A stretch of DNA of 51,002 nt. Origin: an uncultured Bacteroidota bacterium. GTDB taxonomy: Bacteria > Bacteroidota > Bacteroidia > Chitinophagales > Saprospiraceae. This document shows positions 35,655-50,051 of the stretch, piece by piece. The notes under the pieces are model-generated. The model did not search any database. It was given only the letters and a program-made list of their open reading frames with translations, and was not told the DNA's origin. The position numbers and the translations under genes were made by a program. Each line of letters opens with the position of its first letter. The first letter of the stretch is position 1. The stretch lies in the NCBI GenBank assembly GCA_937861115.1, contig CALMBD010000113.1, positions 1 to 51,002 on the forward strand. The letters run 5' to 3'.

Positions 35655-36470
35655 TTACCCGTTCTCCGTAAAGCCCGGATACAAAGTCATGCCTCCGTCT
35701 ACAAAGATGGTGGTGCCGTGGATGTAGTCTGACTCGTCTGAAGCCAGCCAAACGGCGACTGCGCCGATGTCGGAGGTTTCGCCTACACGTTTGTAAGGGA
35801 TCAACTGGAGTAGTTTGTTTTCTGCTTCGGGCGTCTCCCAGGCCGAACGGTTGATGGGCGTCTTGATGGCGCCCGGGCCGATGCTGTTAACCCGTATTTT
35901 CATCGGGCCGTACTCCTGGGCCAGGCTTTTCATCATGAGCATTACGCCGCCCTTGGATGCGGCATAGTTGACGTGTCCGGCCCACGGAATAACTTCGTGA
36001 ACCGATGACATGCAGATGATCTTGCCCAGCGCTACGGATACGTCGGGGCGCGGCCCGCGGCGCAGGAATTCGCGTATGGCTTCGCGCGCACAGAGGAACT
36101 GGCCGGTCAGGTTAACGTCGAGCACAAACTGCCAGTCTTTCAGGCTCATTTCATGAAAGTTGGCATCGCGCTGGAGGCCGGCATTGTTTACCAGGATATC
36201 CACCGTGCCGAAAGTGGCTACGGCTTGCCGGAACATTTCGATCACCTGGTCTTCCTTGCTGACATCGGCTTTAATGGCGAGGGCAGTGCCGCCCATCTGG
36301 GTGATCTCGTCCACGACCTGCTGGGCTGATTCGTCGCCGAAAACATAGTTGACGATCACGTTGGCGCCGTCGCGGGCCATGGCCATGGCGACTGCGCGGC
36401 CGATACCTGAATTGGCGCCGGTGACAATACAGGTTTGTTTGTCGAGGCGATTGTTGGGTTGTTGGTACAT
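35655..36470 (-). CDS. Short-chain dehydrogenase, glucose 1-dehydrogenase-like
   Basis: This 271-residue protein starts at the ATG at 36470. The frame continues upstream to 36545 but crosses the likely promoter, so the shorter form is chosen. It has the TGANSGIG cofactor motif, NNAG, and the catalytic Ser/Tyr/Lys set in SSVHEVIPWAGHVNYAASKGG. The end (DYIHGTTIFVDGGMTLYPGF) is typical of classical SDRs annotated as glucose 1-dehydrogenase. The cofactor is probably NAD(P). The true substrate is not readable. It is transcribed alone. Confidence 0.88.
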   Translation of the reverse strand: MYQQPNNRLDKQTCIVTGANSGIGRAVAMAMARDGANVIVNYVFGDESAQQVVDEITQMGGTALAIKADVSKEDQVIEMFRQAVATFGTVDILVNNAGLQRDANFHEMSLKDWQFVLDVNLTGQFLCAREAIREFLRRGPRPDVSVALGKIICMSSVHEVIPWAGHVNYAASKGGVMLMMKSLAQEYGPMKIRVNSIGPGAIKTPINRSAWETPEAENKLLQLIPYKRVGETSDIGAVAVWLASDESDYIHGTTIFVDGGMTLYPGFTENG

Positions 36471-36636: not shown

Positions 36637-38283
36637 TCATCGCACCACCTGCCCAGCAGTTTTGCCGCCGTTGAGTGTTCGGATTTTATACAGACCGGTG
36701 TGTGCGGTCAGGTAGAGCGTTTTGCCGTCAGCATCGCCCCAGGCCATATTGGCCGGGCGCTCGGGCCCGGTGATCTTGCCGAGGTACCGGCCTTCAGGCG
36801 ACAGCACCCAAACACCGCCGGGTGCGGATACGAACAGGTTGCCTGCGTTATCCACCTTTATCCCGTCGAGTGCTTCGTCGCCGTCGGTAAAACTGAAATC
36901 GAAAAAGACCTTGCCATTGGCCAGTTTCCCGTCGGCAGCAACCTCGTAACGCCACAGCGTTTTGGAGTGGTGGATGTCGCGGATGTCCCAGTTGGCCACA
37001 TACAGGTACTTTTCATCGGGGCTGAAAGCGATACCGTTCGGGCCGCCGAGGTCGGTGCTGAGCAACTCTGTCTTGCCGTTTTGGGTGCGGTAAACACCCT
37101 GGTGCGGCGTTTCCTTTTTCGGGTCGCTGTAGTTTTCAGGCAAACCGTAAGGCGGGTCGGTGAAATAAACTGCTCCGTCGGATTTTAAAACCAGATCGTT
37201 CGGGCTATTGAGCCTTTTGCCGTTCCAGTTGTCGGCCAGCACCGTCACCGGCCCTTTTTTCTCGTGGCGCACCACGCGGCGGTTGCCGTGCTGGCAAACG
37301 ATGAGCCGGCCTTCGGCGTCGATGGCCAACCCGTTGGAACCGGGCTGGTGGTAATCGCCGATATCGAAACCCGTGTAACCACTTTTGGTCATGTAGATGG
37401 AAACGTTGTGCGTCTGCGGTTCGTATCGGTAGATCACATTTGTGTTCGGATCGCTGAAGAGCAGAAAGCCATCGGGGTGCCAGACGGGACCTTCGGTGAA
37501 TTGAAATCCGTCGGCCAGTTTTTCCACGCGGGCATCGGGGGCGATGACTGCTGAAAAGGCCGGTTCGATCTGTATCAATTGACCGACGTCTTGCCAGTCA
37601 GGGTTTTGCGGGTATGTTTTGTAAAAATCCAGGGTAGCCGACCGGAACCAGACGTAGTTCGCGGGCAGGTCGGCAAACGGTGCATTGGCGACCAGGATGG
37701 CGATCTGGAACTGCTGTCCCGGTTTGGCGTTGTCGGTCAGGAACACCCGGTTGCGGGCATTCCAGCCGCTGATCGTACCGCCGCCGGATTGGCCGAACGT
37801 CTTGTTCAGTTTGCCATTGACCCAGATTTCAGCGTAATCATCCGCAACGATCTCCAGCACCGCAGTCGATCCGGCTGTAGTCAGATCGCCGATTTTATCC
37901 GGGATCGTCACGTTCAGCCTGAACCAGACGAACGACAGCAGCCCATTGCCGAAGCGGGTCTCCATTTTTGTCGGATCAACCGTTTCCCAGCGGGAGTCGT
38001 CGAAGTCGACGGCGCCGGCCTTGGGTTCGATATCGTGGGTAGTGATTTTTTTGCCTGTGGGATACAGCGGAAGCGGGTCGGTGGCGCCGGGTCCGGGGGC
38101 TTTGAATCCCGTTTCGACGATATCCGCCTCGCGGAATTTCCAGACGGCCTGCACTGCACCGGCCCCTTCATGCGTGCGCAGGTCAGCGATGGCATCGGGC
38201 TGGCCAATAGCCAGTTCGCGATGCTCCTGTGCATGAAGGAAGAAAGTGGACAGGCAGGAGAAGAGAAACAATATTTTTTTCAT
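36637..38283 (-). CDS. Exported SMP-30/gluconolactonase-family protein with N-terminal beta-sandwich
   Basis: This 548-residue protein has a signal peptide (MKKILFLFSCLSTFFLHAQ), then a carbohydrate-binding-like beta-sandwich (about 30-210; SFVWFRLNVTIPDKIGD, DDYAEIWVNGKLNKTFGQSGG). The six-bladed propeller of the SMP-30/gluconolactonase family follows (about 240-545): ADGFQFTEGPVWHPDGFLLFSDP, LNSPNDLVLKSDGAVYFTDPPYGLPEN, GGPNGIAFSPDEKYLYVANWD and DGIKVDNAGNLFVSAPGGVWVLSPEG. Family members hydrolyse lactones with one divalent metal bound by Glu, Asn and Asp. Those residues appear present (TEGPVW, SPNDL, DGIKVD). The substrate is unknown, and sugar lactone hydrolysis in the periplasm is inferred. 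The gap upstream is filled with repeats. Confidence 0.85.
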   Translation of the reverse strand: MKKILFLFSCLSTFFLHAQEHRELAIGQPDAIADLRTHEGAGAVQAVWKFREADIVETGFKAPGPGATDPLPLYPTGKKITTHDIEPKAGAVDFDDSRWETVDPTKMETRFGNGLLSFVWFRLNVTIPDKIGDLTTAGSTAVLEIVADDYAEIWVNGKLNKTFGQSGGGTISGWNARNRVFLTDNAKPGQQFQIAILVANAPFADLPANYVWFRSATLDFYKTYPQNPDWQDVGQLIQIEPAFSAVIAPDARVEKLADGFQFTEGPVWHPDGFLLFSDPNTNVIYRYEPQTHNVSIYMTKSGYTGFDIGDYHQPGSNGLAIDAEGRLIVCQHGNRRVVRHEKKGPVTVLADNWNGKRLNSPNDLVLKSDGAVYFTDPPYGLPENYSDPKKETPHQGVYRTQNGKTELLSTDLGGPNGIAFSPDEKYLYVANWDIRDIHHSKTLWRYEVAADGKLANGKVFFDFSFTDGDEALDGIKVDNAGNLFVSAPGGVWVLSPEGRYLGKITGPERPANMAWGDADGKTLYLTAHTGLYKIRTLNGGKTAGQVVR

Positions 38284-38458: not shown

Positions 38459-38923
38459 TCAATTCAGCGGCGTGCCGGCGCCGGCGGTTGCGATTTCCCG
38501 GTCCTGGTCGGCAGTTTTGGCGCCGCTTACACCGATGGCGCCGACCACCTGACCGTTGTACAGAACGGGTACGCCGCCCTGGAGGAAGGTGTAGCCGACG
38601 GTGATGAGCGCATCGCGTCCGCCGTTGATGGCGTCTTCGAGTTTTTTGCTCTCGAATTTGAACAAGGCAGCGGTACGGGCTTTTTCGATGGCCACGGTTG
38701 CGGATGCCGGGAACGAGCCGTCGAGGCGTTCGAACAGCAGCAGATGGCCGCCGGCGTCGACGATGGCGATGCTGCCGCCGGGGGCCTGGTTGGCCGCGGC
38801 GTACGTTACTGCGGCGTCCATGACTTTTTGAGCGCCTTCGAGGCTGAGGTTGGCGGTGGCGATCACCTGGGCATGGGCTGAGGCTGCCACCAACAGAAAG
38901 GCGGCGAGAAAGATGTTTTTCAT
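38459..38923 (-). CDS. Exported GlcG/HbpS-family protein
   Basis: This 154-residue protein has a signal peptide (MKNIFLAAFLLVAASAHAQ). The GlcG/HbpS fold follows: LSLEGAQKVMDAAVTYAAAN, GGSIAIVDAGGHLLLFERLDGSFPASATVAIEKARTAALFKFESKKLED, GGVPVLYNGQVVGAIGVSGAKTADQDREIATAG. HbpS homologues bind haem or cobalamin and sense redox state in some bacteria. For most members the role is unknown. It lies between the YHS lipoprotein gene (99 bp upstream) and the SMP-30-like gene, and might be cotranscribed with the former. Confidence 0.88.
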   Translation of the reverse strand: MKNIFLAAFLLVAASAHAQVIATANLSLEGAQKVMDAAVTYAAANQAPGGSIAIVDAGGHLLLFERLDGSFPASATVAIEKARTAALFKFESKKLEDAINGGRDALITVGYTFLQGGVPVLYNGQVVGAIGVSGAKTADQDREIATAGAGTPLN

Positions 38924-39022: not shown

Positions 39023-39511
39023 TCAACTTTTTTTCACGAATTGCTGCTGGAATTTGGCCCACTCTTCCTTTGCTTTTGCATCGTTGCCGGGCACATCTTT
39101 TTTCCAGCCATTGACGGCCTTCTGGTTGTGCTGGTAAATGTTCCGGTTTTGGTAGGTGGTGTCGTAGGTCCACAGTTCGATGGGAGCGAGGCGCCCGACC
39201 GATACGCCGTAGGCGCAGTATCCGCCGTATTCGGGCTCGTAGGTGGCCGGGCTTGCGTCGAACGTGGCCTTGTTTTCGGCGGAGGCAAAGTAGTAGATCG
39301 CGCCTTTGTAGGTAGTCTGGAACTGCGCGTCGCCCTTCGTTTCGACGCCCTGGCGAAGGCTTACCGGGTCGTAGCCCTGAAGGATGACACCTTGTTCGTC
39401 GACATTGACCAGGTAGCCGTCGACCACTTTGCCGAGGTCGGGTTGCTGCGCGCTGGCGCAGGAATGGAGGATTGCCAGCGCGGGCAGGAGGAGAAACAAT
39501 AATTTTTTCAT
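39023..39511 (-). CDS. YHS-domain lipoprotein
   Basis: This 162-residue protein starts at the ATG at 39511. The open frame upstream overlaps the promoter. The lipobox ILHSC gives Cys18 as the lipid anchor. The YHS-like domain spans about 45-115 (VILQGYDPVSLRQG, FQTTYKGAIYYFASAENKATFDASPATYEPEYGGYCAYGVSVGR). YHS domains often occur in metal-related or redox proteins. Its function is unknown. Its promoter carries the shared palindrome (39563-39606). Confidence 0.85.
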   Translation of the reverse strand: MKKLLFLLLPALAILHSCASAQQPDLGKVVDGYLVNVDEQGVILQGYDPVSLRQGVETKGDAQFQTTYKGAIYYFASAENKATFDASPATYEPEYGGYCAYGVSVGRLAPIELWTYDTTYQNRNIYQHNQKAVNGWKKDVPGNDAKAKEEWAKFQQQFVKKS

Positions 39512-39562: not shown

Positions 39563-39606
39563 CAAAGGTCGGGGCGATGCCGGGGCCGCAAGGTTACGCA
39601 GGTAAC
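39563..39606 (-). promoter_or_regulatory. Putative Crp/Fnr-type operator and -7 box of the YHS lipoprotein gene
   Basis: On the minus strand, palindrome GTTACCTGCGTAAC (39593-39606) is followed after exactly 22 bp by GACCTTTG (39563-39570), about 52 bp before the ATG. The same layout recurs at 42971-43014 and 50008-50051. The predicted centre near -41 fits class II activation. Confidence 0.7.
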
Positions 39607-39619
39607 AGTTGCGAAAAAA

Positions 39620-40162
39620 TCAGGTTGTCACAGGTCGAACTTTTGGAAAATCAAGCGGGATTTTTGTCAGGAGTGCTACGTAATTGGAAAAGGTAGCCTC
39701 CATGACCAGCGCTACGGCCTCCATCAGCGCACGGGCATCGAAGCCCCATTCTTCAAAATCGTCCATCATCTGGCGGGATACTTTTCCCCTGTTTTCGGCG
39801 ATGGCCCGCCCAAAATGCGCGAGAAACTGTAGTTTGGGATCGGCGATCGTCGTGGCACGCGCTTCGACGGTTTCCGTTTCGCTCAGTCCGTATGAAATGG
39901 CGTAGGTAGTATGGGCGGAGAGACAGTACGGGCTGCCGTGGAACTCTGAAACGGCCAGCAGGATCACCTCGCGTTCGATCTCCGTAAAGGAGGTTCCGCG
40001 GGCATGGCTTTGTACCAGATTCAGATAGGCTTCAAAGGCATTTGGCGAATATCCGAGTACCAGCCCGATTTTGGGGACGAACCCGAATCCCTTTTCAAGT
40101 GCATCGAAGTAAGGGGCCAGTTCGGGGGACAGTTCATCGCGTTGCGGGACGAGGATTTTCAT
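39620..40162 (-). CDS. Carboxymuconolactone decarboxylase / AhpD-like protein
   Basis: This 180-residue all-helical protein is of the AhpD family (REVILLAVSEFHGSPYCLSAHTTYAISYGLSE). The catalytic motif normally reads E-x-x-x-C-x-x-C-x-x-x-H. Here the first Cys is Ser77, while Cys80 and His84 remain, so the classic CxxC disulfide is lost and alkylhydroperoxidase activity of the standard kind is doubtful. It is separated from the VOC gene by a hairpin terminator that also holds its -7 box. Confidence 0.82.
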   Translation of the reverse strand: MKILVPQRDELSPELAPYFDALEKGFGFVPKIGLVLGYSPNAFEAYLNLVQSHARGTSFTEIEREVILLAVSEFHGSPYCLSAHTTYAISYGLSETETVEARATTIADPKLQFLAHFGRAIAENRGKVSRQMMDDFEEWGFDARALMEAVALVMEATFSNYVALLTKIPLDFPKVRPVTT

Positions 40163-40184
40163 ATGGCAAGGCTCGGTTTTGAGT

Positions 40185-40232
40185 AAAAAAAAAGATCGTT
40201 TTCACGGTACAAAGATACCTGTGAAAACGATC
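40185..40232 (-). terminator. Intrinsic terminator after the VOC gene, with a -7 box in its loop
   Basis: A perfect 12-bp stem GATCGTTTTCAC / GTGAAAACGATC (40221-40232 and 40194-40205) with a 15-nt loop is followed on the minus strand by nine T (40185-40193). The loop contains TATCTTTG (40210-40217), a perfect TAnnTTTG box placed 48 bp before the AhpD-like start. Confidence 0.85.
40210..40217 (-). promoter_or_regulatory. -7 promoter box of the AhpD-like gene, inside the terminator loop
   Basis: TATCTTTG on the minus strand matches TAnnTTTG and lies fully within the loop of the upstream terminator. Transcription would start near 40205 inside the stem, so the leader begins with half of the hairpin. 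Confidence 0.55.
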
Positions 40233-40253
40233 ACTTATGGTTAAAAATCCTGG

Positions 40254-41387
40254 TTATTCAATGGCCTGCCGCAATAAAACGGCGTGGCCGTCGGGGTCCC
40301 GGTATAGGCACATTTTTGAAGATCCGATCTCGACAGCATTGAAGGGTTTTTTGGCAAATCCCTCTTTATCAAGTTTTTGCATCAGCCCGTTCAGGTCGTC
40401 TACCTTGATTTCAGTTTGATAATGCCAGAGGTCGTCGGCGCGGCTGTCCGGCGGATATGGCCTTCCGCCCGGCGGGGCGATGTAATTCAGGAACTCCACT
40501 CCAAAACCGCTGCCGGCATGAAGCCCGTTGATGTCGAGCCGGGCGCCGAATACCTGGTTGAGGTGCTCCTGTTCCGTTCCGTAATTTTCGGAATGACCGC
40601 CGTGCACGAGGCCGAGTTGATCCCGGTAGAACGCCATGCTTTTTTCCGTGTCGGAAATGCCGATCGCGGTGTGGTCGATGCCCTGAAAAACGCTGGTCCC
40701 CTGCTGCCATTTCGGGTCTCCTTTCCCCGGCGGAAACCAGATCAATTCAAGGTTGTGCCCTTCCGGATCGCGAAAATAGAATGCCTTGATGCCGGCGGCG
40801 TTGGGCAGGTATTCCGGCAGCGTCTGCGGCGCGGTACTCACATGCGTCACCTTTGCATCCAGGAGCCTTTTGTAGGCGGCATCCATATCGCTGACCACAA
40901 TGGCCAGGTGCTGGAACCACAGGTCGTTGCTGCGTGTATCCGCCGGAATGGCGCGTGAGGGAGCGCCGTCGAAATCCATCAGGCGTATGGTTTCGCTACC
41001 CAATTGAAGCGTAACCATTTGGACCGAGTTGTTCTCCCCCTGCAATCCAAAAAGCCGGGAGACTTCTGCCCCTTCCCATTTTTCCTGCCCGGTCTGTTTA
41101 AAATCGAGCACCTCTGTAAAGAACGCCACCTCCCGGTCGAGGTCTTCCACAGTGATGCTCACGCCGGTGACCGCAGTGGCTTTCTGGGCATGGAGATTCA
41201 GGCCAGGGCCTGCAAGGAAGAACAACAGCCCGTAAAAGATGAACACCTCGTTTGGATTGGCGCCGCCTTTCCGCCTGGCTGGATGCGCGCCTGGCAGCCG
41301 CATGGATTTGATCAGGATCAGGCTGGTGATGATACCTGAGACAACGGACCCGGCCGGATAGAGGTATCGTTGAAGGATTGTTTTCAT
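40254..41387 (-). CDS. Exported two-domain VOC (glyoxalase-like) protein
   Basis: This protein has up to 377 residues. Two VOC modules are visible: about 72-215 (VTGVSITVEDLDREVAFFTEVLDF to FYFRDPEGHNLELIWFPP) and about 238-375 (GIDHTAIGISDTEKSMAFYRDQLGL to CLYRDPDGHAVLLRQ). Both keep metal-site style residues (His and Glu in DHTAIG and GHNLELI), though the final Glu of the second module is not obvious. N-terminal residues 49-68 (VFIFYGLLFFLAGPGLNLHAQ) look like a signal peptide ending at HAQ, and a start at Met30 would place it near the N-terminus. The start at 41387 adds another hydrophobic stretch, so the true start is open. It follows the GMC gene by 15 bp, in one operon. Confidence 0.8.
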   Translation of the reverse strand: MKTILQRYLYPAGSVVSGIITSLILIKSMRLPGAHPARRKGGANPNEVFIFYGLLFFLAGPGLNLHAQKATAVTGVSITVEDLDREVAFFTEVLDFKQTGQEKWEGAEVSRLFGLQGENNSVQMVTLQLGSETIRLMDFDGAPSRAIPADTRSNDLWFQHLAIVVSDMDAAYKRLLDAKVTHVSTAPQTLPEYLPNAAGIKAFYFRDPEGHNLELIWFPPGKGDPKWQQGTSVFQGIDHTAIGISDTEKSMAFYRDQLGLVHGGHSENYGTEQEHLNQVFGARLDINGLHAGSGFGVEFLNYIAPPGGRPYPPDSRADDLWHYQTEIKVDDLNGLMQKLDKEGFAKKPFNAVEIGSSKMCLYRDPDGHAVLLRQAIE

Positions 41388-41402
41388 AGCTGTGTTGTTG
41401 TA

Positions 41403-42941
41403 TTAGCGTGAAAGGAGATGTTCCCCTACGCGCAAGGCGTTGGCCATGGCAGTCAGGGAGGGGTTCACGGCCCCGGACGACGGGAAGAAACTGGTATCCA
41501 CGACGTACAGGTTGTCCAGGTCGTGGGCTTTGCAGTTCAGGTCGAGTACCGAGGTGGCAGGGTCGGCGCCGAAGCGACAGGTACCGTTCTGGTGGCTGAC
41601 GCCGCCAATGCCGAGTTTGAAGCCGTAGTATTTTGTCGTGCCGCCTACGCCTTCGCTTTCCGCCACGCGGTCCATGATCCCGATAAGTTTTTCCCGCAGG
41701 CGGCGGTAGGCTTCGAGGTTGTTCTGGGTATAATGCAGTTGAATATTGCCTTCCCTGTCTACTGCGACGCGGTTCCCGGCAAGCGGCAGGTCTTCCGCCG
41801 TGATAAAGAAATCGACGATGTGCCCGGCGAAGTGCGCCGCGTCTTTGCCGTCTTTTCCGAGATCGTCGCCTACCGCGTCGGCGAGCAGTAGCGGGTCGGC
41901 TTTGCCCATATTCTGGATGGAGCCGAGCGGATGCGGACTGTCGGGAGCGCCGTGGTAGAAATCGGGAATGATAATAGCCTTTTGGAATGTGGAGGGATTG
42001 GGTTTGGCAGAGTAGGCCAATACCACGCCGTTATTGTGGATCATCAGGTTGCGGCCCACCTGACCGCTGCTGTTGGCCAGGCCGTCGGGATGTTTTTCGC
42101 TGGCCGAGCGCAGGAGCAGCGCTGCCGAGTTGATGGCGCCGCACGACACGACGATTGTATCGGCATGGTATGTTTCTTCCATGCCTTCATGGGCTACGGT
42201 AACGCTCGTCGCCCGGCGACCGCTGGCATCTGTATTGATTTTCAGGGCTTTGCGATTGCGCAGCATCGTGACATTCGGGTATTGCAAGGCGCCCTGGATG
42301 CCCACCACGTGGCTGTCGCCCTTGGCGCCGGTAGGGTCCGGGTAACCGTCGTACAGTTCGATGTTGAGGCTGTCGCTCTGGCGTCCGTTCATATCCTGCG
42401 GCAGGCGAATGGCCAGCGGGATCGGTGCGGGGTGGTACCCTTGCGCAGCGATCGCCTGGCTGACTTCGGCCATACGCGGCTCGAAGGGCAGGGCAGGGTA
42501 GGGGTAGCCATTGGTCGCCGGTGGTTCGGTGGGGTCGATGCCCCGCGCGCCGTGGACAGCGTAAAGATGTTCTACCATATCGTACCAGGGCGCGAAGTCG
42601 GCGTACTTCAGCGGCCATTCGGGCGACAGACCGTCGAAGTGCATGGTCGCCTCGAAATCGCGTTCCCGCAGGCGCAACAGCGCACCGCCGAACATCTTGG
42701 TATTGCCGCCGACCCAATAATGGTGGTAAGGTGAAAATGCCTTTCCGTCGCGGTCGCGCCACATTTCCGTGGTTTTGTAACGGCCCTGGGCAACCGCCAG
42801 CGGGTCCCAGTTTTCCTTTTCTTTGGGCAGAAAGTCGCCGCGCTCGAGGATAAGAATGCGTTTGCCGGAAGGGGCCAGTTTGTAGGCCAGCGTTCCACCG
42901 CCGGCGCCGGTCCCGATGATGATGATATCAAAATTGGTCAT
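41403..42941 (-). CDS. GMC-family FAD-dependent oxidoreductase
   Basis: This 512-residue protein opens with the FAD-binding motif IIIIGTGAGGGTLAYKLAPSGKRILILERG. It has the GMC signature region (HHYWVGGNTKMFGGALLR, then CGAINSAALLL) and a C-terminal active-site region GGVSHQNGTCRFGADPATSVLDLNCKAHDLDNLYVVDTSFFPSSGAVNPSLTAMANALR. The His and Asn there are the usual catalytic pair. It probably oxidises an alcohol or sugar. No signal peptide is seen, in contrast to its exported neighbours. First gene of a two-gene operon with the VOC gene, under a promoter with the shared palindrome. Confidence 0.9.
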   Translation of the reverse strand: MTNFDIIIIGTGAGGGTLAYKLAPSGKRILILERGDFLPKEKENWDPLAVAQGRYKTTEMWRDRDGKAFSPYHHYWVGGNTKMFGGALLRLRERDFEATMHFDGLSPEWPLKYADFAPWYDMVEHLYAVHGARGIDPTEPPATNGYPYPALPFEPRMAEVSQAIAAQGYHPAPIPLAIRLPQDMNGRQSDSLNIELYDGYPDPTGAKGDSHVVGIQGALQYPNVTMLRNRKALKINTDASGRRATSVTVAHEGMEETYHADTIVVSCGAINSAALLLRSASEKHPDGLANSSGQVGRNLMIHNNGVVLAYSAKPNPSTFQKAIIIPDFYHGAPDSPHPLGSIQNMGKADPLLLADAVGDDLGKDGKDAAHFAGHIVDFFITAEDLPLAGNRVAVDREGNIQLHYTQNNLEAYRRLREKLIGIMDRVAESEGVGGTTKYYGFKLGIGGVSHQNGTCRFGADPATSVLDLNCKAHDLDNLYVVDTSFFPSSGAVNPSLTAMANALRVGEHLLSR

Positions 42942-42970
42942 GATTTCTTTGTGTTTTTCTTTTGACAGGA

Positions 42971-43014
42971 CAAAGGTGCGGGGAGCAGAACGTTCGGGAT
43001 GTTACGGGGGTAAC
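42971..43014 (-). promoter_or_regulatory. Putative Crp/Fnr-type operator and -7 box of the GMC-VOC operon
   Basis: On the minus strand, GTTACCCCCGTAAC (43001-43014) is followed after exactly 22 bp by CACCTTTG (42971-42978), about 30 bp before the ATG. The layout is the same as at 39563-39606 and 50008-50051. It lies in the divergent gap shared with the lipoprotein gene starting at 43132. Confidence 0.7.
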
Positions 43015-43131
43015 AAAGTGCAAAACAAGTATTTGCCGGTTGACCCAACCTCGAGCCCCGAATCAGCGTATTCATGAAGAACGTTCGAGTGGTCCTCTGT
43101 TTATTTCTTTCACCGGTAAACCGCCATTAGC

Positions 43132-44016
43132 ATGCGTAAAATCACTTTCATCTCGGTCCTCCTGCTGGTTGTTACAAGTTGCAGCAAGGAGCGCACGGTC
43201 AGTTCGTTAGACCCCAATACTATCCAGATTGACGGCGCAAATTGGGACGTAGAGCGTTCCTGTGTGCTGTTCCGAAGGGCCGGAACACCGGCCTGGTACA
43301 ATATCATGATAAAAATAGAAGGCACGGATGGCACCGCTCTGTTCATATCCCTGCCTGAAAAATGGGACAACGGCATGAATGCGGCGCCCGGAATATATCC
43401 TGTTGAAAATCAGGATATTGCTTCATTAAGGGTCTCGGCAACGTATTATCTTTCAGACGCCATGAACGGTGCGGCATTTAAGGCAGGCGACCCGGAAGGC
43501 TATGTAGAAATCATATCGGTCGACCCAGCCAATCAAACGATCAACGTGAAATTTGACCTGTCGCTGTACGATAAAAACGGAGCAAAAATGAATATCCGTA
43601 GCGGGGAGATGCAACAAATCGGCTATCAAAACAAAGCGGCTTATTCCACTTTCCTGTCCTTGTCGGCACTCCGGAACGACGAAGCCTTCCAAATCTCCGA
43701 ATACGGCAGCGATATGGTGGAAGGGCGGACGGATTGGCTGATGTATGAAAACGCCCATTACTACAGCCTGCGTTTTTCCATTCCCTGGTCTGCCAAACCG
43801 GGCGTGCATGTCTTGTCGCCGTCCGATTCTTCTGTGGTGCAGTATGCTGAAGGTGTAGGGTATCTCCTTGAATCAGCCACTTACAATATTGAATTCATTG
43901 ATTTTTGCGACGCTAAAATACGGGGCACCTTCCATGCCATCTTCCGGCACCCGACCGACCCGGCCGTGACAGTCGAGTTCAAAGACGGGCTGTTTGAGAC
44001 GAATTATGATTTCTGA
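43132..44016 (+). CDS. Lipoprotein of unknown function
   Basis: This 294-residue protein has a lipoprotein signal (ITFISVLLLVVTSCSKE, lipid Cys about residue 17). The rest is rich in short beta-strand-like segments (TIQIDGANWDVERSCVLF, GYVEIISVDPANQTINVKFDLSLYDKNGAKMNIRSGEM, YNIEFIDFCDAKIRGTFHAIFRHPTDPAVTVEFKDGLFETNYDF). The ending resembles Bacteroidota surface lipoproteins with a beta-sandwich, but I cannot name the family. It is the only + strand gene in this part and is convergent with crp, with a 13-bp gap. Confidence 0.75.
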   Translation: MRKITFISVLLLVVTSCSKERTVSSLDPNTIQIDGANWDVERSCVLFRRAGTPAWYNIMIKIEGTDGTALFISLPEKWDNGMNAAPGIYPVENQDIASLRVSATYYLSDAMNGAAFKAGDPEGYVEIISVDPANQTINVKFDLSLYDKNGAKMNIRSGEMQQIGYQNKAAYSTFLSLSALRNDEAFQISEYGSDMVEGRTDWLMYENAHYYSLRFSIPWSAKPGVHVLSPSDSSVVQYAEGVGYLLESATYNIEFIDFCDAKIRGTFHAIFRHPTDPAVTVEFKDGLFETNYDF

Positions 44017-44029
44017 ATAAAGCGGGGCA

Positions 44030-44707
44030 TTACACCAGGGCTTCCAGGTTCGGTACATAGATTTCCTTGCGTCCGAAAAACTTGACCATTCCGGCCTCTT
44101 CGAGGTCGGTAAAGAGCAGCGAGACGGTTTTGCGCGAGGCGCCGATCAGTGCTGCGATATCGCTCTGGGTGATTTCCAGCGTTATTTTTACGCCTGTACG
44201 GTAGGGTGTTCCGATGTCGCGGCAGAGGTCTTTCACAAACTCGACAAGGCGCTGGCGGGCATCCTTGAACAGCAGGATCTGGAGCCGGCGTTCGAGCCGC
44301 CCCATCCGTTCGCCGAAACGTTTGGTGAGGGTCAGGGAAAACGGCACGTAATCGCGCGCCAGTTCCTGCGCCTTTTCGACCCGGAGTTTGCAGATCAGGG
44401 TATGGTCGGTGACGGCCTGTGCAAATTCCTTGTGCCGGTTTTCGCCAAACAGGGCTTTTTCGCCGAGTATTTCGCCGCGGCCCAGAAAGGCAATGACCTG
44501 CTCGTTGCCTTCCTTGTCGTAAAAACCGATTTTGACACGGCCCTCCGCCACCAGGTAAATTTCGCGAACGGGGTCGCCTTCCATAAACAGGAAATCCGTT
44601 TTGTTGTAACAACTCAACGGATGCGACTTCATGTGGTCGTTGTATTTGTACGGACAAAGGATGTCGTACAAATCTACTTCTTCGAAAAACCAGACGCCTT
44701 TATTCAT
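44030..44707 (-). CDS. Crp/Fnr-family transcription regulator
   Basis: This 225-residue protein has an N-terminal cyclic-nucleotide-binding-like beta-roll (about 28-118; FLFMEGDPVREIYLVAEGRVKIGFYDKEGNEQVIAFLGRGEILGEKALFGE), a dimer helix, and a winged helix-turn-helix (about 181-203; QSDIAALIGASRKTVSLLF). There is no FNR-type set of four N-terminal Cys, so an iron-sulfur sensor is unlikely. The ligand is unknown. Its ATG overlaps the stop of the esterase gene (ATGA at 44704-44707). It is the last gene of an operon whose promoter holds the palindrome described at 50008-50051, so it probably regulates itself. Confidence 0.93.
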   Translation of the reverse strand: MNKGVWFFEEVDLYDILCPYKYNDHMKSHPLSCYNKTDFLFMEGDPVREIYLVAEGRVKIGFYDKEGNEQVIAFLGRGEILGEKALFGENRHKEFAQAVTDHTLICKLRVEKAQELARDYVPFSLTLTKRFGERMGRLERRLQILLFKDARQRLVEFVKDLCRDIGTPYRTGVKITLEITQSDIAALIGASRKTVSLLFTDLEEAGMVKFFGRKEIYVPNLEALV

Positions 44708-46158
44708 ACAACAACTGTTTGAGGTTTTGGAGATGAGATGTTCCGTGCGCCGGGGCGTTTGCCTTTGGCCGGTTCCACGGCTTCCACCTGGTTGAGGTGT
44801 ACCCGCCGGGAGAAAACGAGATCACCGTCCGACAACAGGCGTATCGAGTAGAGACATTCCTCCCAGTCGGCATAGGGGATAAAGTTGTCATCGTGCGTCA
44901 GGGGGTGGTGGAATTGCCGGTAGTGACAATAGTCGCGTATCTCCAGCAAGGGCTGTTGCAGGCGCCTGTTTACGTTGACCACCAGTTGTTTGGCGCTTTC
45001 GTCGAGGCGGAACTTGATAAAATCGCCGGTCACGCCGTGTGTATGGCCCGGCATATTGCCGAACAGCCAGCGCAGGGCGTGCTCAAACTCCCGCGCCCAG
45101 AACCACTCTGCGTGGGCGCCGTCGGTATGCAGGTCATAGTGGAGCAAATGGTCGTCGTGCCCTGCTTCGAGCAGGGTTTCATAGAGGTCGAGCAGGTCGC
45201 TGACCATCGTTTCGCTTTCCTGCTGACCGGCCATGAGCAGTATTTTCTGGGGCAGGGCGGGTTTTCGGTGCTGTACGTAGGGCAGAATTTCTTTGGAGAA
45301 CCACAGCGAGGGCGAGAACACGCCCGCCATACCGAAAATATCGGGTCGCTCCAGGGCGGCATACAAAGAGATCAGTCCGCCCATGCTGCTGCCCATGATA
45401 CCGGTGTCGTTGCGTCCCGGCATGGTGCGCAGGTGTTCGTCGGCAAATGGCTTGAGGATGTCGCACACGAAATCGAGGTATTTTTCTCCTTCGCCGCCGC
45501 CGTATTCCGGATGTTGCCAGGGAGAATATTCTGCGATACGGTGCTCGCCGCCGTTTTCTATGCCGATGAATATGGGTTGTGTTTCCATTCCGGCGGCGGC
45601 CTGCATCTGACTCATAAAAAGCCGGTTCAGGGCCTTGTCGATCCCCCAGGAACCGTAAACGGCGTCGGGGTTGTCGAACAGATTCTGCCCGTCCTGCATA
45701 TACACGACAGGGTATCGCTTGCCGGACGTCCAGTAATCGGGCGGAAGGCAGGCCCAGATGCGGCGTGTCCGGTTTAGTTGGGGAATGTACAATGCGGGGT
45801 GCAGGAGGAGGATATTGCCGGGCGATCTGTGTTGTTGCGCTTCCGCCTTCATATCGGTCCAGGATTCGATACTGATCCAGTACTCGCTGTCGGGTACACC
45901 GGTTTTGGAAATGCGGTTGGGGCGCTCGTTGCCCATGCTGTCGCCTTCTGCCGCCGACCAGTTGCCGCGTGTGATCTTGTACTCCAGCGTATCGCGATCT
46001 GTCTGAATATCAATACTGTACGACCCGTCGCCATTGGGTGCAAACCGGTAGGGTGTTTCAGCAGGTTGCCAGCCGTTGAAATTGCCGGCAAGGTAAAACG
46101 CAGTCCCCGCAGGGGTGTAGGGCGGAAGGGACTGAATATGGAATCGTACTGTTTTCAT
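44704..46158 (-). CDS. Esterase-family hydrolase with N-terminal carbohydrate-binding-like module
   Basis: This 484-residue protein begins with a starch/glycogen-binding-like beta-sandwich (about 1-100; AFYLAGNFNGWQPAETPYRFAPNGDGSYSIDI). An esterase D / enterochelin-esterase alpha/beta hydrolase follows (about 115-395) with VVYMQDGQNLFDN and the nucleophile Ser258 in GIMGSSMGGLIS. His (in TDGAHAEWFW) and an Asp or Glu are candidates for the rest of the triad. The C-terminal part (about 400-484) is unassigned. No signal peptide is visible, so it is probably cytoplasmic. It starts 7 bp after the upstream gene and overlaps crp by 4 bp. Confidence 0.87.
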   Translation of the reverse strand: MKTVRFHIQSLPPYTPAGTAFYLAGNFNGWQPAETPYRFAPNGDGSYSIDIQTDRDTLEYKITRGNWSAAEGDSMGNERPNRISKTGVPDSEYWISIESWTDMKAEAQQHRSPGNILLLHPALYIPQLNRTRRIWACLPPDYWTSGKRYPVVYMQDGQNLFDNPDAVYGSWGIDKALNRLFMSQMQAAAGMETQPIFIGIENGGEHRIAEYSPWQHPEYGGGEGEKYLDFVCDILKPFADEHLRTMPGRNDTGIMGSSMGGLISLYAALERPDIFGMAGVFSPSLWFSKEILPYVQHRKPALPQKILLMAGQQESETMVSDLLDLYETLLEAGHDDHLLHYDLHTDGAHAEWFWAREFEHALRWLFGNMPGHTHGVTGDFIKFRLDESAKQLVVNVNRRLQQPLLEIRDYCHYRQFHHPLTHDDNFIPYADWEECLYSIRLLSDGDLVFSRRVHLNQVEAVEPAKGKRPGARNISSPKPQTVVV

Positions 46159-46165
46159 AGTATTT

Positions 46166-46984
46166 TCAGTTGCAGGTGTTGCCGGGATTCAGGGATTCGC
46201 GGTGTATCCGTTGTATGGTGGAGGGGTCGGTGTACAGTACCAGCCAGTCGCTTTCCCGACCGATTCGTCCGCAAAGTTGCACGCCGTCGCCAACGAATTC
46301 AAGTATGCGATCGTTGAGCATCTCACCGCCGGGGCCTGCGAGCAGGTAGTACTCGGTTTCCCCCTGTGCATTGGCTACTTTGAGTACAGGCGGTATGCCG
46401 CCGGCAATACACCGTGCTGCGCAATCGCGGTGCGGTTTTCCGAAACCGGGTTTCATCACGCCGAGCAGGCATTTGGGGTCGGTGATCTCACCCCGCAGGG
46501 TGACCGTGCCGGATCCGGGACCGGAGGAGCGGGGATCGGCTTCGGCGGCGGTATGGTTTTGTTTTTTGTTTATCGAACGCACCTCCAGGGCCGTTTTCCC
46601 GTCGTGGTAGATCAAAAAGCCGGATGCGGTGACCATCGATCCGTCCTCGACAGACATCTCCGGACCCGTAGTGAATCCGAACTTGCCGGGAGCGACCAGC
46701 AGAATTTTTTGTGTAATGGGCTTCCCTGCCGCGTCTGTGCCGTTTTCAACGGTAAGAAAGGGGAAGGGATGCCGGCTGTATCTGCCCGACAGTTCGGTTT
46801 TTTTGCCGTATTCGAAGGTGCTCCCGGCAAATCCGCTCTGGAAAAGCACGATCAGCGCTGCCACAGCCGGCACGAGCAGGCAAAGTGCGAGCAGGAACTG
46901 CCGGACCCGCCGGGCAAACCCCGGCGGCGCCTCGGCCTGCCAGCCGATGTAAAATTCAGAGTCGTCTTGCATGGTCCGGTTCAT
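46166..46984 (-). CDS. Membrane-anchored protein with conserved-looking Cys motif, unknown function
   Basis: This 272-residue protein starts at the ATG at 46984, which overlaps the stop of the Rieske fusion gene (ATGA), so the longer open frame upstream is rejected. It has one transmembrane helix (about 29-52) and a periplasmic region. Residues 160-200 read as TLRGEITDPKCLLGVMKPG followed by GKPHRDCAARCIAGGIPPV, with Cys172, Cys188, Cys192 and His185 as possible metal or haem-binding residues. I recall similar motifs in uncharacterised proteins but cannot name the family. Translational coupling to the ferric-reductase/Rieske gene suggests a redox partner. Function is inferred only. Confidence 0.7.
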   Translation of the reverse strand: MNRTMQDDSEFYIGWQAEAPPGFARRVRQFLLALCLLVPAVAALIVLFQSGFAGSTFEYGKKTELSGRYSRHPFPFLTVENGTDAAGKPITQKILLVAPGKFGFTTGPEMSVEDGSMVTASGFLIYHDGKTALEVRSINKKQNHTAAEADPRSSGPGSGTVTLRGEITDPKCLLGVMKPGFGKPHRDCAARCIAGGIPPVLKVANAQGETEYYLLAGPGGEMLNDRILEFVGDGVQLCGRIGRESDWLVLYTDPSTIQRIHRESLNPGNTCN

Positions 46985-48039
46985 GTCGTTGATAGGGTGA
47001 TCCTTGCCGGCGGACGGGCTGTCCCTTCCGGGTAGGGTGTCGGATTGACGTAAACTTTTGTGCCGGCCACCTGCACATCGTAGGTGCACACCTGTTCGTG
47101 AAACGGCGGTGGCGATTGCCCGTTTTCGGGCAAATACTGGTAGCCATGCCAGGGGCAGGTGATGCACCCGTCGATGATCTTGCCTTCGCTGAGCGGACCG
47201 TTCTGGTGTTTGCAGAGGTTGTGCACTGCCGAAAGTTTGTCGTCGTACTTGAACAATGCTATGTTTTCACCGCCGATAATCAGCATTTTAGCGCGATTTT
47301 CGGGGATATCTGCAACATCGCAGGCATACACAAAACCGTCGGGAATGGCTTTCGCAGCGGAGCGCCGGGCCCCGCCGTCTGTTCGGGCCTGTTTGACGGC
47401 CGCCGCGAGGTGCAAACCCAGGACGGCAACCAGGCCTGTGCCGGTCAAGCCGATAAGTACGGGTGATTTTTCCAGTTGGATCACGCCGAGCATGACGTGC
47501 ATGACGAGCATGGCATAGGCAAAGTATACGCCCATGTGCAGGGTTTTCCAGACGGGCGGTGTGAGGTTTTTCAGCCAGAAATCGTGGCTGGTGGCCGCCA
47601 TGAGGAAAAGAATGATCAGCGCGAAGAAACCCAGCGACTGAAACGGGAACCGGGCGAGCGAGCCGAACTGCGTGTTGGAGGTAAAGAGCGACACGAGCGG
47701 ATCGACATTGCCCAGCGCATGGAATTGTACCAGGTTGAATACGCCGTGCGTGAGGGCGATCATAAACATCGTTACGCCCAGGTGGCGGCGGTTGTACAGC
47801 AACGGCAGGAAGCGCCGGTCGAACCTGCACAACGGACCAATGCACAGGATGACGTGCAGCATCAGGAATGCCAGGGTGCCGGTAGCGCGGATGGTGAGCG
47901 TTTCGGCCGTGATCTGCGGGTGAAAAACCAGTTGCAACCCGCCGAACAGGACCAGGTAGCCGGCTACAAACGCGAGCATCAGGCGGTCGTACAGCCTTTT
48001 GTGGGGCGTCCAGTGTATCGGATCGTATATGACAGACAT
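46981..48039 (-). CDS. Fusion of ferric-reductase-like membrane domain and Rieske 2Fe-2S domain
   Basis: This 352-residue protein has six hydrophobic helices (about 20-38, 55-72, 88-108, 135-150, 167-187, 193-213) with His residues spaced as haem ligands (LHVILCIGP, THGVFN, TLHMGVYFAYAMLVMHVML), as in ferric-reductase-like / MsrQ-type domains. A C-terminal Rieske-type ferredoxin domain follows (about 232-340), with Cys276-x-His278 and Cys295-x2-His298 in NLCKHQNGPLSEGKIIDGCITCPWHGYQY. The pattern is that of Rieske oxygenase-type ferredoxins. The arrangement would connect b-haems in the membrane to a 2Fe-2S cluster on one side. It is central in the crp operon. Confidence 0.85.
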   Translation of the reverse strand: MSVIYDPIHWTPHKRLYDRLMLAFVAGYLVLFGGLQLVFHPQITAETLTIRATGTLAFLMLHVILCIGPLCRFDRRFLPLLYNRRHLGVTMFMIALTHGVFNLVQFHALGNVDPLVSLFTSNTQFGSLARFPFQSLGFFALIILFLMAATSHDFWLKNLTPPVWKTLHMGVYFAYAMLVMHVMLGVIQLEKSPVLIGLTGTGLVAVLGLHLAAAVKQARTDGGARRSAAKAIPDGFVYACDVADIPENRAKMLIIGGENIALFKYDDKLSAVHNLCKHQNGPLSEGKIIDGCITCPWHGYQYLPENGQSPPPFHEQVCTYDVQVAGTKVYVNPTPYPEGTARPPARITLSTT

Positions 48040-48080
48040 AATGCGTGTTCTGTTTTGGTTTGTTAAAGCATGAGGATGGC

Positions 48081-48524
48081 TCAGGGGTGCAGTACAACCG
48101 TCCGGAGCAGGCGCCCCTGGATGTTGTCTTCAAACCGGAGTGTCAGGGAACTGCTTCGGGCCGCTGTGCTGTCCAGGTTAAAACGGTGTATACCCCGGGA
48201 GCCCAGCAGTCCCAGCAAGGTTTTATCCTGCCGGTTGTCTGCGTTTTCGAGCAGGAGCATGGTGTTTGGGTTGGACAGGGGCCTGGCGATAAGAACTTCT
48301 ATCTGGCGCTGTGTTCCACTGCTGTCCTGCCGGAGACTGATCACGAAATCGCCGGATTGTGTCGACTGGATTTCAAGGGGAAGTTGTTCCGGTTCTGCCG
48401 GCCTGACCGGTTGCTGCCATACGGCATCGGGAATGGCCATTACAGCCGCCAGCCAGCCCACCGGAAGTAATGCAGCGAACGAAAACCAGATGTACCGGTG
48501 TGCTTTTCTCAGCAAAGGTGTCAT
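48081..48524 (-). CDS. Small membrane-anchored protein, unknown function
   Basis: This 147-residue protein has one N-terminal helix (about 12-30, WFSFAALLPVGWLAAVMAI). A soluble beta-rich domain follows (LPLEIQSTQSGDFVISLRQD, QRQIEVLIARPLSNPNTMLLLENADN, IHRFNLDSTAARSSSLTLRFEDNIQ). It resembles no family I can name. It lies 41 bp upstream of the ferric-reductase/Rieske gene, in the same operon. Confidence 0.72.
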   Translation of the reverse strand: MTPLLRKAHRYIWFSFAALLPVGWLAAVMAIPDAVWQQPVRPAEPEQLPLEIQSTQSGDFVISLRQDSSGTQRQIEVLIARPLSNPNTMLLLENADNRQDKTLLGLLGSRGIHRFNLDSTAARSSSLTLRFEDNIQGRLLRTVVLHP

Positions 48525-48565
48525 CAGCAGGGGAGTTGGGTCAGAATAATAGGTTGAGGTATTAG

Positions 48566-48597
48566 CGTCATTGAGTCGTTATTCGTCATTCGTCAGT
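48566..48597. repeat. Short heptamer repeat at the stop of the 74-residue gene
   Basis: On the minus strand, two ATGACGA-type heptamers follow one another and AACGACT and CAATGACG continue the pattern. The stop codon (48586-48588) of the small membrane protein lies inside it and its last residues TDE are repeat-encoded. Confidence 0.6.
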
Positions 48598-48810
48598 TGA
48601 ATGGGCGCGGGATGTTTGGAGCCATTTTCGGAGCAGGACGGGCCACAGCGCTGCGCTGGCGGGAAAGAGCAGGGTGCGGGTTTTCCAGGAAATACCTTTG
48701 GCTGATTCGTCGAGTTTTGCTGCGCCGCGCCAGACAAACAGCGCAGCAAAAATCACCCCTGCAAGCAGGTAGAGATAGAAGGCGTTGACGATAAATTTGA
48801 TTGTTTCCAT
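48586..48810 (-). CDS. Small membrane protein, unknown function
   Basis: This 74-residue protein has an N-terminal helix (about 7-28, VNAFYLYLLAGVIFAALFVW) and a second, weaker hydrophobic stretch (about 45-60, TRTLLFPASAALWPVLLRKW). It lies between the DUF1622 gene and the 147-residue protein gene and is part of the crp operon by position. The C-terminus ends in heptamer repeat DNA. I do not recognise it as a named family. Confidence 0.65.
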   Translation of the reverse strand: METIKFIVNAFYLYLLAGVIFAALFVWRGAAKLDESAKGISWKTRTLLFPASAALWPVLLRKWLQTSRAHSTDE

Positions 48811-48896
48811 AACCTGATCTTTTATTTGTTAGGGGTCTGGATTCGGGGTTGTCGTAAATCCAGACCTGAAGCCGGAATCCCCTAAAGTGCTTGTTG

Positions 48897-49241
48897 TCAA
48901 TTTTTTGCTTCAATTTCGCGCCCCAGGAAATAACCGATTGTGGTGCGCAGCAGACCGATGATGGCGAGGCTGATAAGTTCCTGCCATTCGGGGTGCAGCA
49001 TCGACGACAGGATATCCGACACGATGTAGAAGTCGAGCCCCAGGAGGATGTAGTTGCCCACCACCGGCCGAAGGGCTGAAATGCCTTCTAGGCTTGCCTC
49101 GTTGCTGGTTCTTACTTCGCGCCATTCATGCAAGAGAAACCCCCACATCCCTTTTGCAAAGCCCACCAACAACACCAGGGCGCTGAGCAACTCGATCCCG
49201 TTAGACAGCCTTTGCAACAGCATTGAACGATATTCTTCCAT
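48897..49241 (-). CDS. DUF1622 family membrane protein
   Basis: This 114-residue protein has about three hydrophobic segments (IELLSALVLLVGFAKGMWGFLL, VGNYILLGLDFYIVSDILSSML, LISLAIIGLLRTTIGYFLGREIEAKN), matching DUF1622. Function is not established for the family. It follows the SDR gene after 26 bp, which indicates cotranscription. Confidence 0.85.
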   Translation of the reverse strand: MEEYRSMLLQRLSNGIELLSALVLLVGFAKGMWGFLLHEWREVRTSNEASLEGISALRPVVGNYILLGLDFYIVSDILSSMLHPEWQELISLAIIGLLRTTIGYFLGREIEAKN

Positions 49242-49267
49242 GTGAAACGCTTGTTTTCAAACGGTTT

Positions 49268-49966
49268 CTAGGCGTTGTTGTACAGTTTAATCACTGTTTC
49301 GCGCATATTCTCGCCTGTGTCGCTGAGCAAAAAGGAGATGGTTTCGGCGGCAACTTCAGGGGTTACCCATTCGCCGGCGGGTGCGTTGGGCAGTGCCGCG
49401 CGGTTCTGGGGGGTGTCGAGCAGAGAGGGTATGACCACGCTGGCCCGGATATCCTTGAATTTGCCCTGGTCGTTGATGATCTCCGCGAGGCGAAACAACA
49501 GCGATTTGCTGAGGGCATAGGCAAACTGGTTCTTGCCTTCGGCGGGATTGATGGCCGGGCGTGCACCGATGAAGACAAACTGTCCGCGCCCTTTCCGCTC
49601 GAAAAACTCAAGCAACGGCTTGACGATGTTGAACGCCGTGGCGAAGTTGAGTTTGATCATCTTGTCCAGCTCGTACATCGTGGTTTCAGCGATCGTTCCG
49701 GGCTGCCACCCGCCTACGATGCACACGGCGGTGTCGACCTCGGGGTCTTGTGCGATGATGCCCTTCACATAACCTTCCGATACGGTCTCGTCGGTCAGGT
49801 TGAGAAATTGAGCGTGTATATTGGCTTCATGCGGGCTTTCGCCGAATGTTTTGGAGTTTTCACCCAGTCCGAGCGCTGCGTAGATTTTATGCCCGTCCTG
49901 CGCGAAGCGCTTGACGACAGCCTGTCCCATATTTCCGGCCGCGCCGGTAACGATGATGGATTTCAT
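49268..49966 (-). CDS. Short-chain dehydrogenase/reductase
   Basis: This 232-residue SDR has the cofactor motif TGAAGNMG, CIVGGW in place of the usual NNAG, and an active-site region FVFIGARPAINPAEGKNQFAYALSKSLLFRL with the Tyr-x-x-x-Lys element (YALSK). The substrate is unknown. It is the first gene of an apparent eight-gene operon: SDR, DUF1622, 74-residue protein, 147-residue protein, ferric-reductase/Rieske, Cys-motif protein, esterase, crp. The promoter upstream has the shared palindrome. Confidence 0.88.
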   Translation of the reverse strand: MKSIIVTGAAGNMGQAVVKRFAQDGHKIYAALGLGENSKTFGESPHEANIHAQFLNLTDETVSEGYVKGIIAQDPEVDTAVCIVGGWQPGTIAETTMYELDKMIKLNFATAFNIVKPLLEFFERKGRGQFVFIGARPAINPAEGKNQFAYALSKSLLFRLAEIINDQGKFKDIRASVVIPSLLDTPQNRAALPNAPAGEWVTPEVAAETISFLLSDTGENMRETVIKLYNNA

Positions 49967-50007
49967 GTAGAAATGGATTTATTGATGTTTTTGATCGTTT
50001 GATGATA

Positions 50008-50051
50008 CAAAGGTCGGTATTGATTGGGGCGCCAATGTTTACCTGCGTAAC
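50008..50051 (-). promoter_or_regulatory. Putative Crp/Fnr-type operator and -7 box of the SDR-to-crp operon
   Basis: On the minus strand, GTTACGCAGGTAAA (50038-50051, one base off a perfect palindrome) is followed after exactly 22 bp by GACCTTTG (50008-50015), about 42 bp before the SDR ATG. It has the same geometry as at 39563-39606 and 42971-43014. Confidence 0.7.

Follow-up and report, generated by a model that had tools for sequence, protein, structure and literature searches.

Operators, genes and candidate regulon

The window, meaning the whole 51,002-nucleotide stretch analysed here (positions 1-51,002 of contig CALMBD010000113.1, assembly GCA_937861115.1), comes from an uncultured Bacteroidota bacterium (Saprospiraceae) and carries on its minus strand a gene for a Crp/Fnr regulator (P0001, 225 amino acids, 44030..44707) together with three promoters that share a putative palindromic operator. 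The initial annotation of this DNA had described GTTAC-N4-GTAAC exactly 22 bp ahead of a -7 box at three minus-strand promoters, an arrangement confirmed by direct reading. Operator 1, GTTACCTGCGTAAC (39606-39593), with its box GACCTTTG at 39570-39563, precedes the YHS-HbpS-SGL genes; operator 2, GTTACCCCCGTAAC (43014-43001), with the box CACCTTTG at 42978-42971, precedes the GMC-VOC genes; and operator 3, GTTACGCAGGTAAA (50051-50038), with a second copy of GACCTTTG at 50015-50008, stands before the operon that runs from an SDR gene to crp. The palindrome is perfect at the first two sites and imperfect at the third, which has one mismatch, as the letters given in the initial annotation already show. 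The boxes have the common form [GC]ACCTTTG, and all three operator-box elements are intergenic with respect to the called genes. Allowing up to one mismatch, the palindrome occurs 3 times in the window against 0.79 expected, a number reached by 2 of 100 shuffles and, without the box, only mildly unusual. A sigma-70 scan of the region, which does not cover this type of promoter, gave 6 matches against 5.8 expected and thus stayed at chance level.

All genes assigned here to these promoters lie on the minus strand. The gene gaps make the SDR (49268..49966; PF00106) the leading gene of the third operon, which further contains a DUF1622 protein (48897..49241; domain match), a protein with a ferric-reductase-like membrane domain and a Rieske domain (46981..48039; PF01794, PF00355), a 272-amino-acid protein with no Pfam match (46166..46984; gaps to its neighbours of 7 and -4) and an esterase-domain protein (44704..46158; PF00756) that overlaps the start of crp by 4 bp (gap -4). 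The N-terminal stretch of the esterase resembles, by eye, a glycogen-binding module. First downstream of operator 2 is a GMC oxidoreductase (41403..42941; PF05199, PF00732), with a VOC (glyoxalase-fold) protein at 40254..41387 (PF00903); first downstream of operator 1 is a YHS-domain protein (39023..39511; PF04945, with NF041384 over its cut-off), whose label as a lipoprotein derives from the initial annotation, with an HbpS-like protein (38459..38923; PF03928) and an SMP-30/gluconolactonase-like protein, here SGL (36637..38283; PF08450). An SDR of the glucose-1-dehydrogenase type, assigned by family match, lies at 35655..36470; in genome G373 the ortholog of this gene is preceded by its own site (L191:17904). 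Between the GMC promoter and crp, an open reading frame on the plus strand (43132-44016) runs opposite to the direction of the regulon and has below-cut-off matches to Riean_0653 and DUF6252.

Beyond the window, pattern counts were made across the 5.71-Mb genome and compared with a reversed-pattern control. The palindrome followed by ACCTTTG after a gap of 20-24 gave 3 exact matches with identical spacing in all and none for the control; two of these are in the window and the third, on contig C316 (C numbers denote contigs of this genome), is an independent find. A genome scan had been proposed in the initial annotation, and with the form GTTAC-N4-GTAAC, 23 bases and ANNTTTG at up to one mismatch it returned 7 sites against 2 for the control; the signal beyond chance is the combination of palindrome, fixed spacing and box. 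Of four exact palindromes outside the window, three have no box at 22 bp; two of these three are within long called genes. Looser patterns were rejected as counting evidence, being noise with higher counts in the control (15 against 26 for the ANNTTTG form at two mismatches, 15 against 24 at three mismatches). Because of that two-mismatch count, weak sites in this genome rest on conservation: C8:5468 was kept because genomes G373 and G385 (G numbers denote sampled genomes, L numbers the stretches read) have a site ahead of the same gene, and the other seven of eight two-mismatch matches were dropped.

The resulting set of eight candidates comprises the seven sites at up to one mismatch and C8:5468. 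Besides the YHS gene, the GMC gene and the SDR-to-crp operon in the window, the candidate targets are a GH63-like hydrolase gene and a 202-amino-acid gene followed by a glycogen debranching enzyme and a YHS protein, both on contig C8, a 346-amino-acid gene on C84, a glutamine-amidotransferase-like gene on C316 and a CotH-like gene with a long leader on C4. Six of the eight (those of the window, C8 and C84) were compared with relatives, and all six are conserved there. Of the local regulon that was originally proposed, the three sites are kept in relatives, and the limit to three targets and to this locus does not stand.

Promoter geometry and proposed mode of regulation

In Flavobacterium psychrophilum, the TAnnTTTG box has been placed at -12 to -5 (PMC9723704; statements from this and the other PMC papers cited below refer to the sections available to us). 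Combined with the 22-bp spacing, this position puts the centre of the palindrome at -41.5, which refines the earlier estimate of about -41 and, by analogy with a box located in another Bacteroidota species, would correspond to the geometry of a class II activator. The closest solved structure to P0001 by sequence is that of cyanobacterial NtcA, which offers a parallel. The NtcA site is GTAN8TAC with the core GTN10AC. In class II promoters of NtcA its 14-bp register is identical to that found here, the centre falls at about -41.5, as predicted for the window, and at ilvG the -10 box follows after 22 nt (PMC3898017). The two systems differ in the half-site (GTTAC here, GTA in NtcA), in the residue pair of the recognition helix (Arg-Lys against Arg-Val), in the box (a Bacteroidota-type -7 box against TAN3T) and in the scanned targets, which here are not nitrogen genes.

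The Crp/Fnr protein encoded at 44030-44707 very probably binds the palindromes and acts as a class II activator on a regulon that includes its own operon. In the proposed mechanism, a dimer of the regulator would bind TGTTAC-N4-GTAAC and, centred at -41.5, would take the place of a -33 element 22 bp ahead of the -7 box, from where it would activate the target promoters in the class II manner. The predicted regulon would comprise, in this organism, the regulator's own operon, an oxidoreductase group made up of the GMC-VOC and YHS-HbpS-SGL genes, and, outside the window, an alpha-glucan group (the GH63-like hydrolase and the glycogen debranching enzyme). The interpretation offered in the initial annotation is, as a whole, supported as far as sequence comparison can carry it.

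Repressor sites need no exact spacing, and the fixed 22 bp together with the -41.5 centre counts against the possibility that the regulator binds the palindromes and represses the promoters; so does the lack of the first T of TAnnTTTG in all eight boxes of this genome, which suggests promoters that need help. In favour of repression, an operator covering the -33 region might obstruct RNA polymerase, and NtcA represses some promoters too (PMC3898017), but we consider it unlikely here.

Site and regulator across related genomes

The case for this regulator as the activator draws on the distribution of site and protein among relatives. A first search with P0001 over 150 genomes of the family found, besides the genome of origin, G091, G058, G008 and G100 at 48-54% identity (223-268 bits) and G104 at 41% (160 bits); the remaining matches, at up to 37% identity and 143 bits, were mostly to a widespread paralog that is also present in the genome of origin. 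An alignment of seven orthologs (A1), used as a profile over 396 genomes of the order, separated seven genomes above 300 bits, the ortholog threshold, from a next best score of 205 bits. The exact pattern, searched in what is assumed to be the same sample of 396, gave 15 matches in six genomes, every one with an ortholog (Fisher p = 1.4e-12), whereas the reversed control gave 18 single matches in 18 genomes. The comparison with genomes lacking the regulator, set beforehand, thus came out in favour of the link, the exact pattern being found in 0 of 389 genomes below the threshold and in 6 of 7 above it. Within the genus of the window, the pattern is present in 4/4 genomes with the regulator and 0/9 without it (Fisher p = 0.0014).

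Spacing gives a similar separation. When the gap between palindrome and TTTG was left free between 20 and 32 bases, the 150 genomes yielded 82 palindrome matches in total, and the 26-base gap, which equals the 22-bp spacing plus the first four box bases, accounted for 9 of 13 in the genomes with an ortholog carrying the Arg-Lys pair (G000, G008, G058, G091 and G100, the last contributing no match) against 4 of 69 elsewhere, where G104 was counted and contributed none (p 1.4e-6). A last search over 398 family genomes added seven orthologs (G639, G654, G489, G492, G505, G548 and G573), and the exact element was found near five of them in stretches of 10-40 kb. At least one exact element lies nearby or in the genome for 15 of the 18 Arg-Lys regulators, with search depth uneven among them.

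Several findings weigh against the proposed link. The ortholog genome G100 has a one-mismatch site directly after crp and no exact site, and the stretches read from G492 and G548 each have a perfect palindrome close to crp, with no box following at 22 bp. Two of the nine same-genus genomes without the regulator (G366, G402) have one one-mismatch match each, G361 at one mismatch has five matches and as many control matches, and two of the four same-gap matches outside the Arg-Lys set (G014 and G126, without ortholog) share the A in the second position of the box and thus have a fitting box. Four of the seven ortholog genomes above 300 bits belong to one genus, and the p values given above are overstated because the genomes are related. 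The GMC target, searched at E 1e-40, was found in only 8 of 23 genomes, all eight with the regulator, so that cluster and site may travel together. At two mismatches, none of six genomes exceeds its own control. The exact palindrome alone has 6 copies in the genome of origin against 17 for the reversed control and was rejected as a genome-wide signal, there being no enrichment. Ten matches to HTH_Crp_2 in the same genome add a further complication.

The missing enrichment of the palindrome alone and the joint presence of regulator and GMC cluster speak for the shared element being a chance resemblance, or an ancestry relic of the gene cluster without regulatory meaning. Such an origin is highly improbable given the pattern of conservation: when promoters are aligned by site, palindrome, distance and box are kept while the 22-bp spacer diverges. 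In a table of 42 sites a T stands ahead of GTTAC in 41, a position that played no part in selection; the columns of the motif itself do not count as evidence, because the table was selected with the motif, and among them the half-site reads GTTAC in 35 sites and GTAAC in 7. The element also stands ahead of different genes in G091 and in G286, the latter from another family, neither of which has a close GMC gene (31% identity in G091, none at E 1e-40 in G286). In G091 an msrA-msrB pair and an MsrB-like gene have exact sites ahead of them, and a DUF2007 gene has one with a single mismatch in the box; G286 has an exact site before msrB and a second at a contig end, where its gene is not in view. 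These sites before msr-type genes indicate that the element goes with the regulator and is not tied to the gene cluster alone.

Where a relative has kept both the regulator and the targets, it retains the site at equal spacing before the same genes, as would be expected from the regulon first proposed, and this extends to rearranged clusters (G489, G505 and G573), in which the element is still found ahead of runs of the same genes. Operator 1 is kept before the YHS gene in L098, L099, G373, G385 and G639, and in G361 with one mismatch; operator 2 before the GMC gene in L098, L099 (one mismatch), G373, G385, G361, G008, G058, G639 and G654 (one mismatch); and operator 3 before the SDR gene in L099, G373, G385, G361, G639, G654 and G489, with 0-2 mismatches. 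L099 (JAKLJF010000048.1) is labelled Thermoanaerobaculia (Acidobacteriota) and has the genes belonging to each of the three window promoters, sites included, together with an 86% identical regulator; it is perhaps a misbinned Bacteroidota contig.

The suggestion of a self-regulating operon survives for part of the clade only. The order from site through SDR to crp is found in eight loci (the window itself, L099, G361, G373, G385, G639, G654 and G489), whereas in the stretches read from G008, G091, G100, G286, G505 and G573 there is no site ahead of crp, and in those from G492 and G548 none with a box. The L098 stretch begins within the operon, and in G058 the site is far upstream of crp. With crp lacking a leading site in many loci, self-regulation through this site would be a lineage trait.

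The ten HTH_Crp_2 matches mentioned above would allow the palindrome to be bound by another regulator, for example another Crp/Fnr protein of the same genome, with the neighbouring crp gene a bystander. The cluster in G058 and that in G505 do contain a further Crp-like gene (L126:1179-2000 and L221:8753-9445), whose helix has the Arg-Gln pair. Against this, no exact site is present in genomes of the order sample that have the widespread Arg-Gln paralog but not the Arg-Lys protein, and eight paralog loci (about 280 kb) contain neither an exact palindrome nor a one-mismatch palindrome with a box. In the order sample the sites track the Arg-Lys clade only, a comparison that did not cover the other paralogs of the genome of origin one by one, and a different binding protein thus appears quite unlikely.

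Recognition helix, known systems and gene content

Membership of P0001 in the Crp/Fnr superfamily is clear from Pfam matches to cNMP_binding (PF00027, 65.6 bits, cut-off 27.5), HTH_Crp_2 (PF13545, 51.3 bits, cut-off 27) and Crp (PF00325, 25.9 bits, cut-off 21). Its recognition helix reads ASRKTVS, and R192-K193, which align with the Arg-Val of NtcA, are taken by us to be CRP positions 180-181. At position 193 all 41 sampled paralogs have Gln; of the 12 orthologs, 11 have Lys and G104 has Glu. A 42-row tree places the 18 proteins with Lys in one group (support 100/99) that G104 adjoins on a long branch. Scores remained below cut-off for NtcA (TIGR03697, 77.3 bits, cut-off 244.95), cAMP-responsive CRP (NF008732, 77.2 bits, cut-off 266) and FNR (NF008365, 60.3 bits, cut-off 228), and these identities were rejected.

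Class II promoters of E. coli CRP have the half-site TGTGA at -41.5, read by a protein with Glu at position 181. The fold, the TGT opening of the half-site and, by prediction, the -41.5 placement are shared with the system described here, which differs in reading TGTTAC rather than TGTGA and in having Lys for Glu. By-eye alignment places the equivalents of R82 and S83, presumably the cAMP-phosphate residues of CRP, at 93-94, where the 12 orthologs have K6 R4 T1 D1 and E6 D4 N1 A1. C18 and C106 are the only cysteines that do not vary in A1, and both are invariant in the 12 orthologs; redox sensing through them would not be specific to this clade, since each also occurs in 38 of the 41 paralogs.

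The published recognition code for residues 180 and 181 ties Arg180 to the G of the half-site and relates residue 181 to an inner base, HcpR2 with Pro181 having GTAAC (Rodionov et al. 2005, PMC1274295). On the sequence evidence, GTTAC read by Arg-Lys would add a new pair to this code. HcpR2, also of the Crp/Fnr family, has a predicted motif GTAACnnnnGTTAC equal in length and register to the operator found here (PMC1274295), and was rejected as an identity because of the middle base, T instead of A in the 35 GTTAC sites, and the residue at the 181 equivalent, Lys or, in G104, Glu instead of Pro; no hcp gene is among the scanned targets, no search having been aimed at it. BT4338/MalR of Bacteroides is likewise a Crp-like regulator of carbohydrate genes in Bacteroidota, with an ATGTT half-site and a putative -7 box downstream, but its consensus wwwTATGTTnTAnAACATAwww (TATGTTnTAnAACATA) has halves 4 bp apart, not 8 bp as here (PMC6989115); this identity was rejected on the operator, not on protein orthology. 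MalR-like proteins have been proposed in a Saprospiraceae genome too (PMC8510549), and the sections available for the cAMP-independent Crp of Porphyromonas give no operator string (PMC12040651). For the terms searched, the open-licence PMC literature yielded no description of the operator string or of its pairing with such a regulator.

The sister regulator of G104 (L132, 8672-9500) has an Arg-Glu helix and adjoins a DoxX gene. No GTTAC site was found in the 18 kb read from this genome. The 16-mer TGTTAGCTACCTCACA stands at the 22-bp register before the TAACTTTG box of the DoxX gene, matching TGTGA-N6-TCACA at 9 of 10 positions, the sole such place in the 18 kb, and the site type of the window at 9 of 12. 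Having been spotted post hoc, this CRP-like 16-mer is a lead only.

Behind or clustered with the sites are GMC, VOC, SGL, glucose-dehydrogenase-like SDR, AhpD-type CMD, HbpS-like, YHS, ferric-reductase/Rieske, MIP channel, GH63/MGH1-like and glycogen debranching domains, to which relatives add DoxX, methionine sulfoxide reductases and a CBM48-bearing subtilase. We infer from this gene set that alpha-glucan use is joined to redox upkeep, and the joint retention of site and protein in relatives suggests a small circuit controlling sugar-polymer and redox genes. There is about as much reason to accept as to doubt the broader picture, in which a Crp/Fnr subfamily undescribed as far as we found reads GTTAC-N4-GTAAC with an Arg-Lys pair, the code has maybe been caught changing at G104, and the regulon links the use of alpha-glucans with redox and methionine-sulfoxide repair. 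The literature searched contained few defined Crp/Fnr regulons for Bacteroidota, a phylum with an unusual -7 box in its promoters. Regulator, operator, exact promoter geometry and target list, as put forward here, can each be tested directly, and the natural Lys/Gln/Glu series provides material for testing how the recognition helix reads DNA.

Cluster genes provisionally labelled DinB and ATPgrasp gave no family match. The subtilase, which has its CBM48 at the C-terminus, is part of the cluster in G100 (L131:9445-11049), G058, G489, G492, G505 and G573; the stretches read from the genus of the window did not show it.

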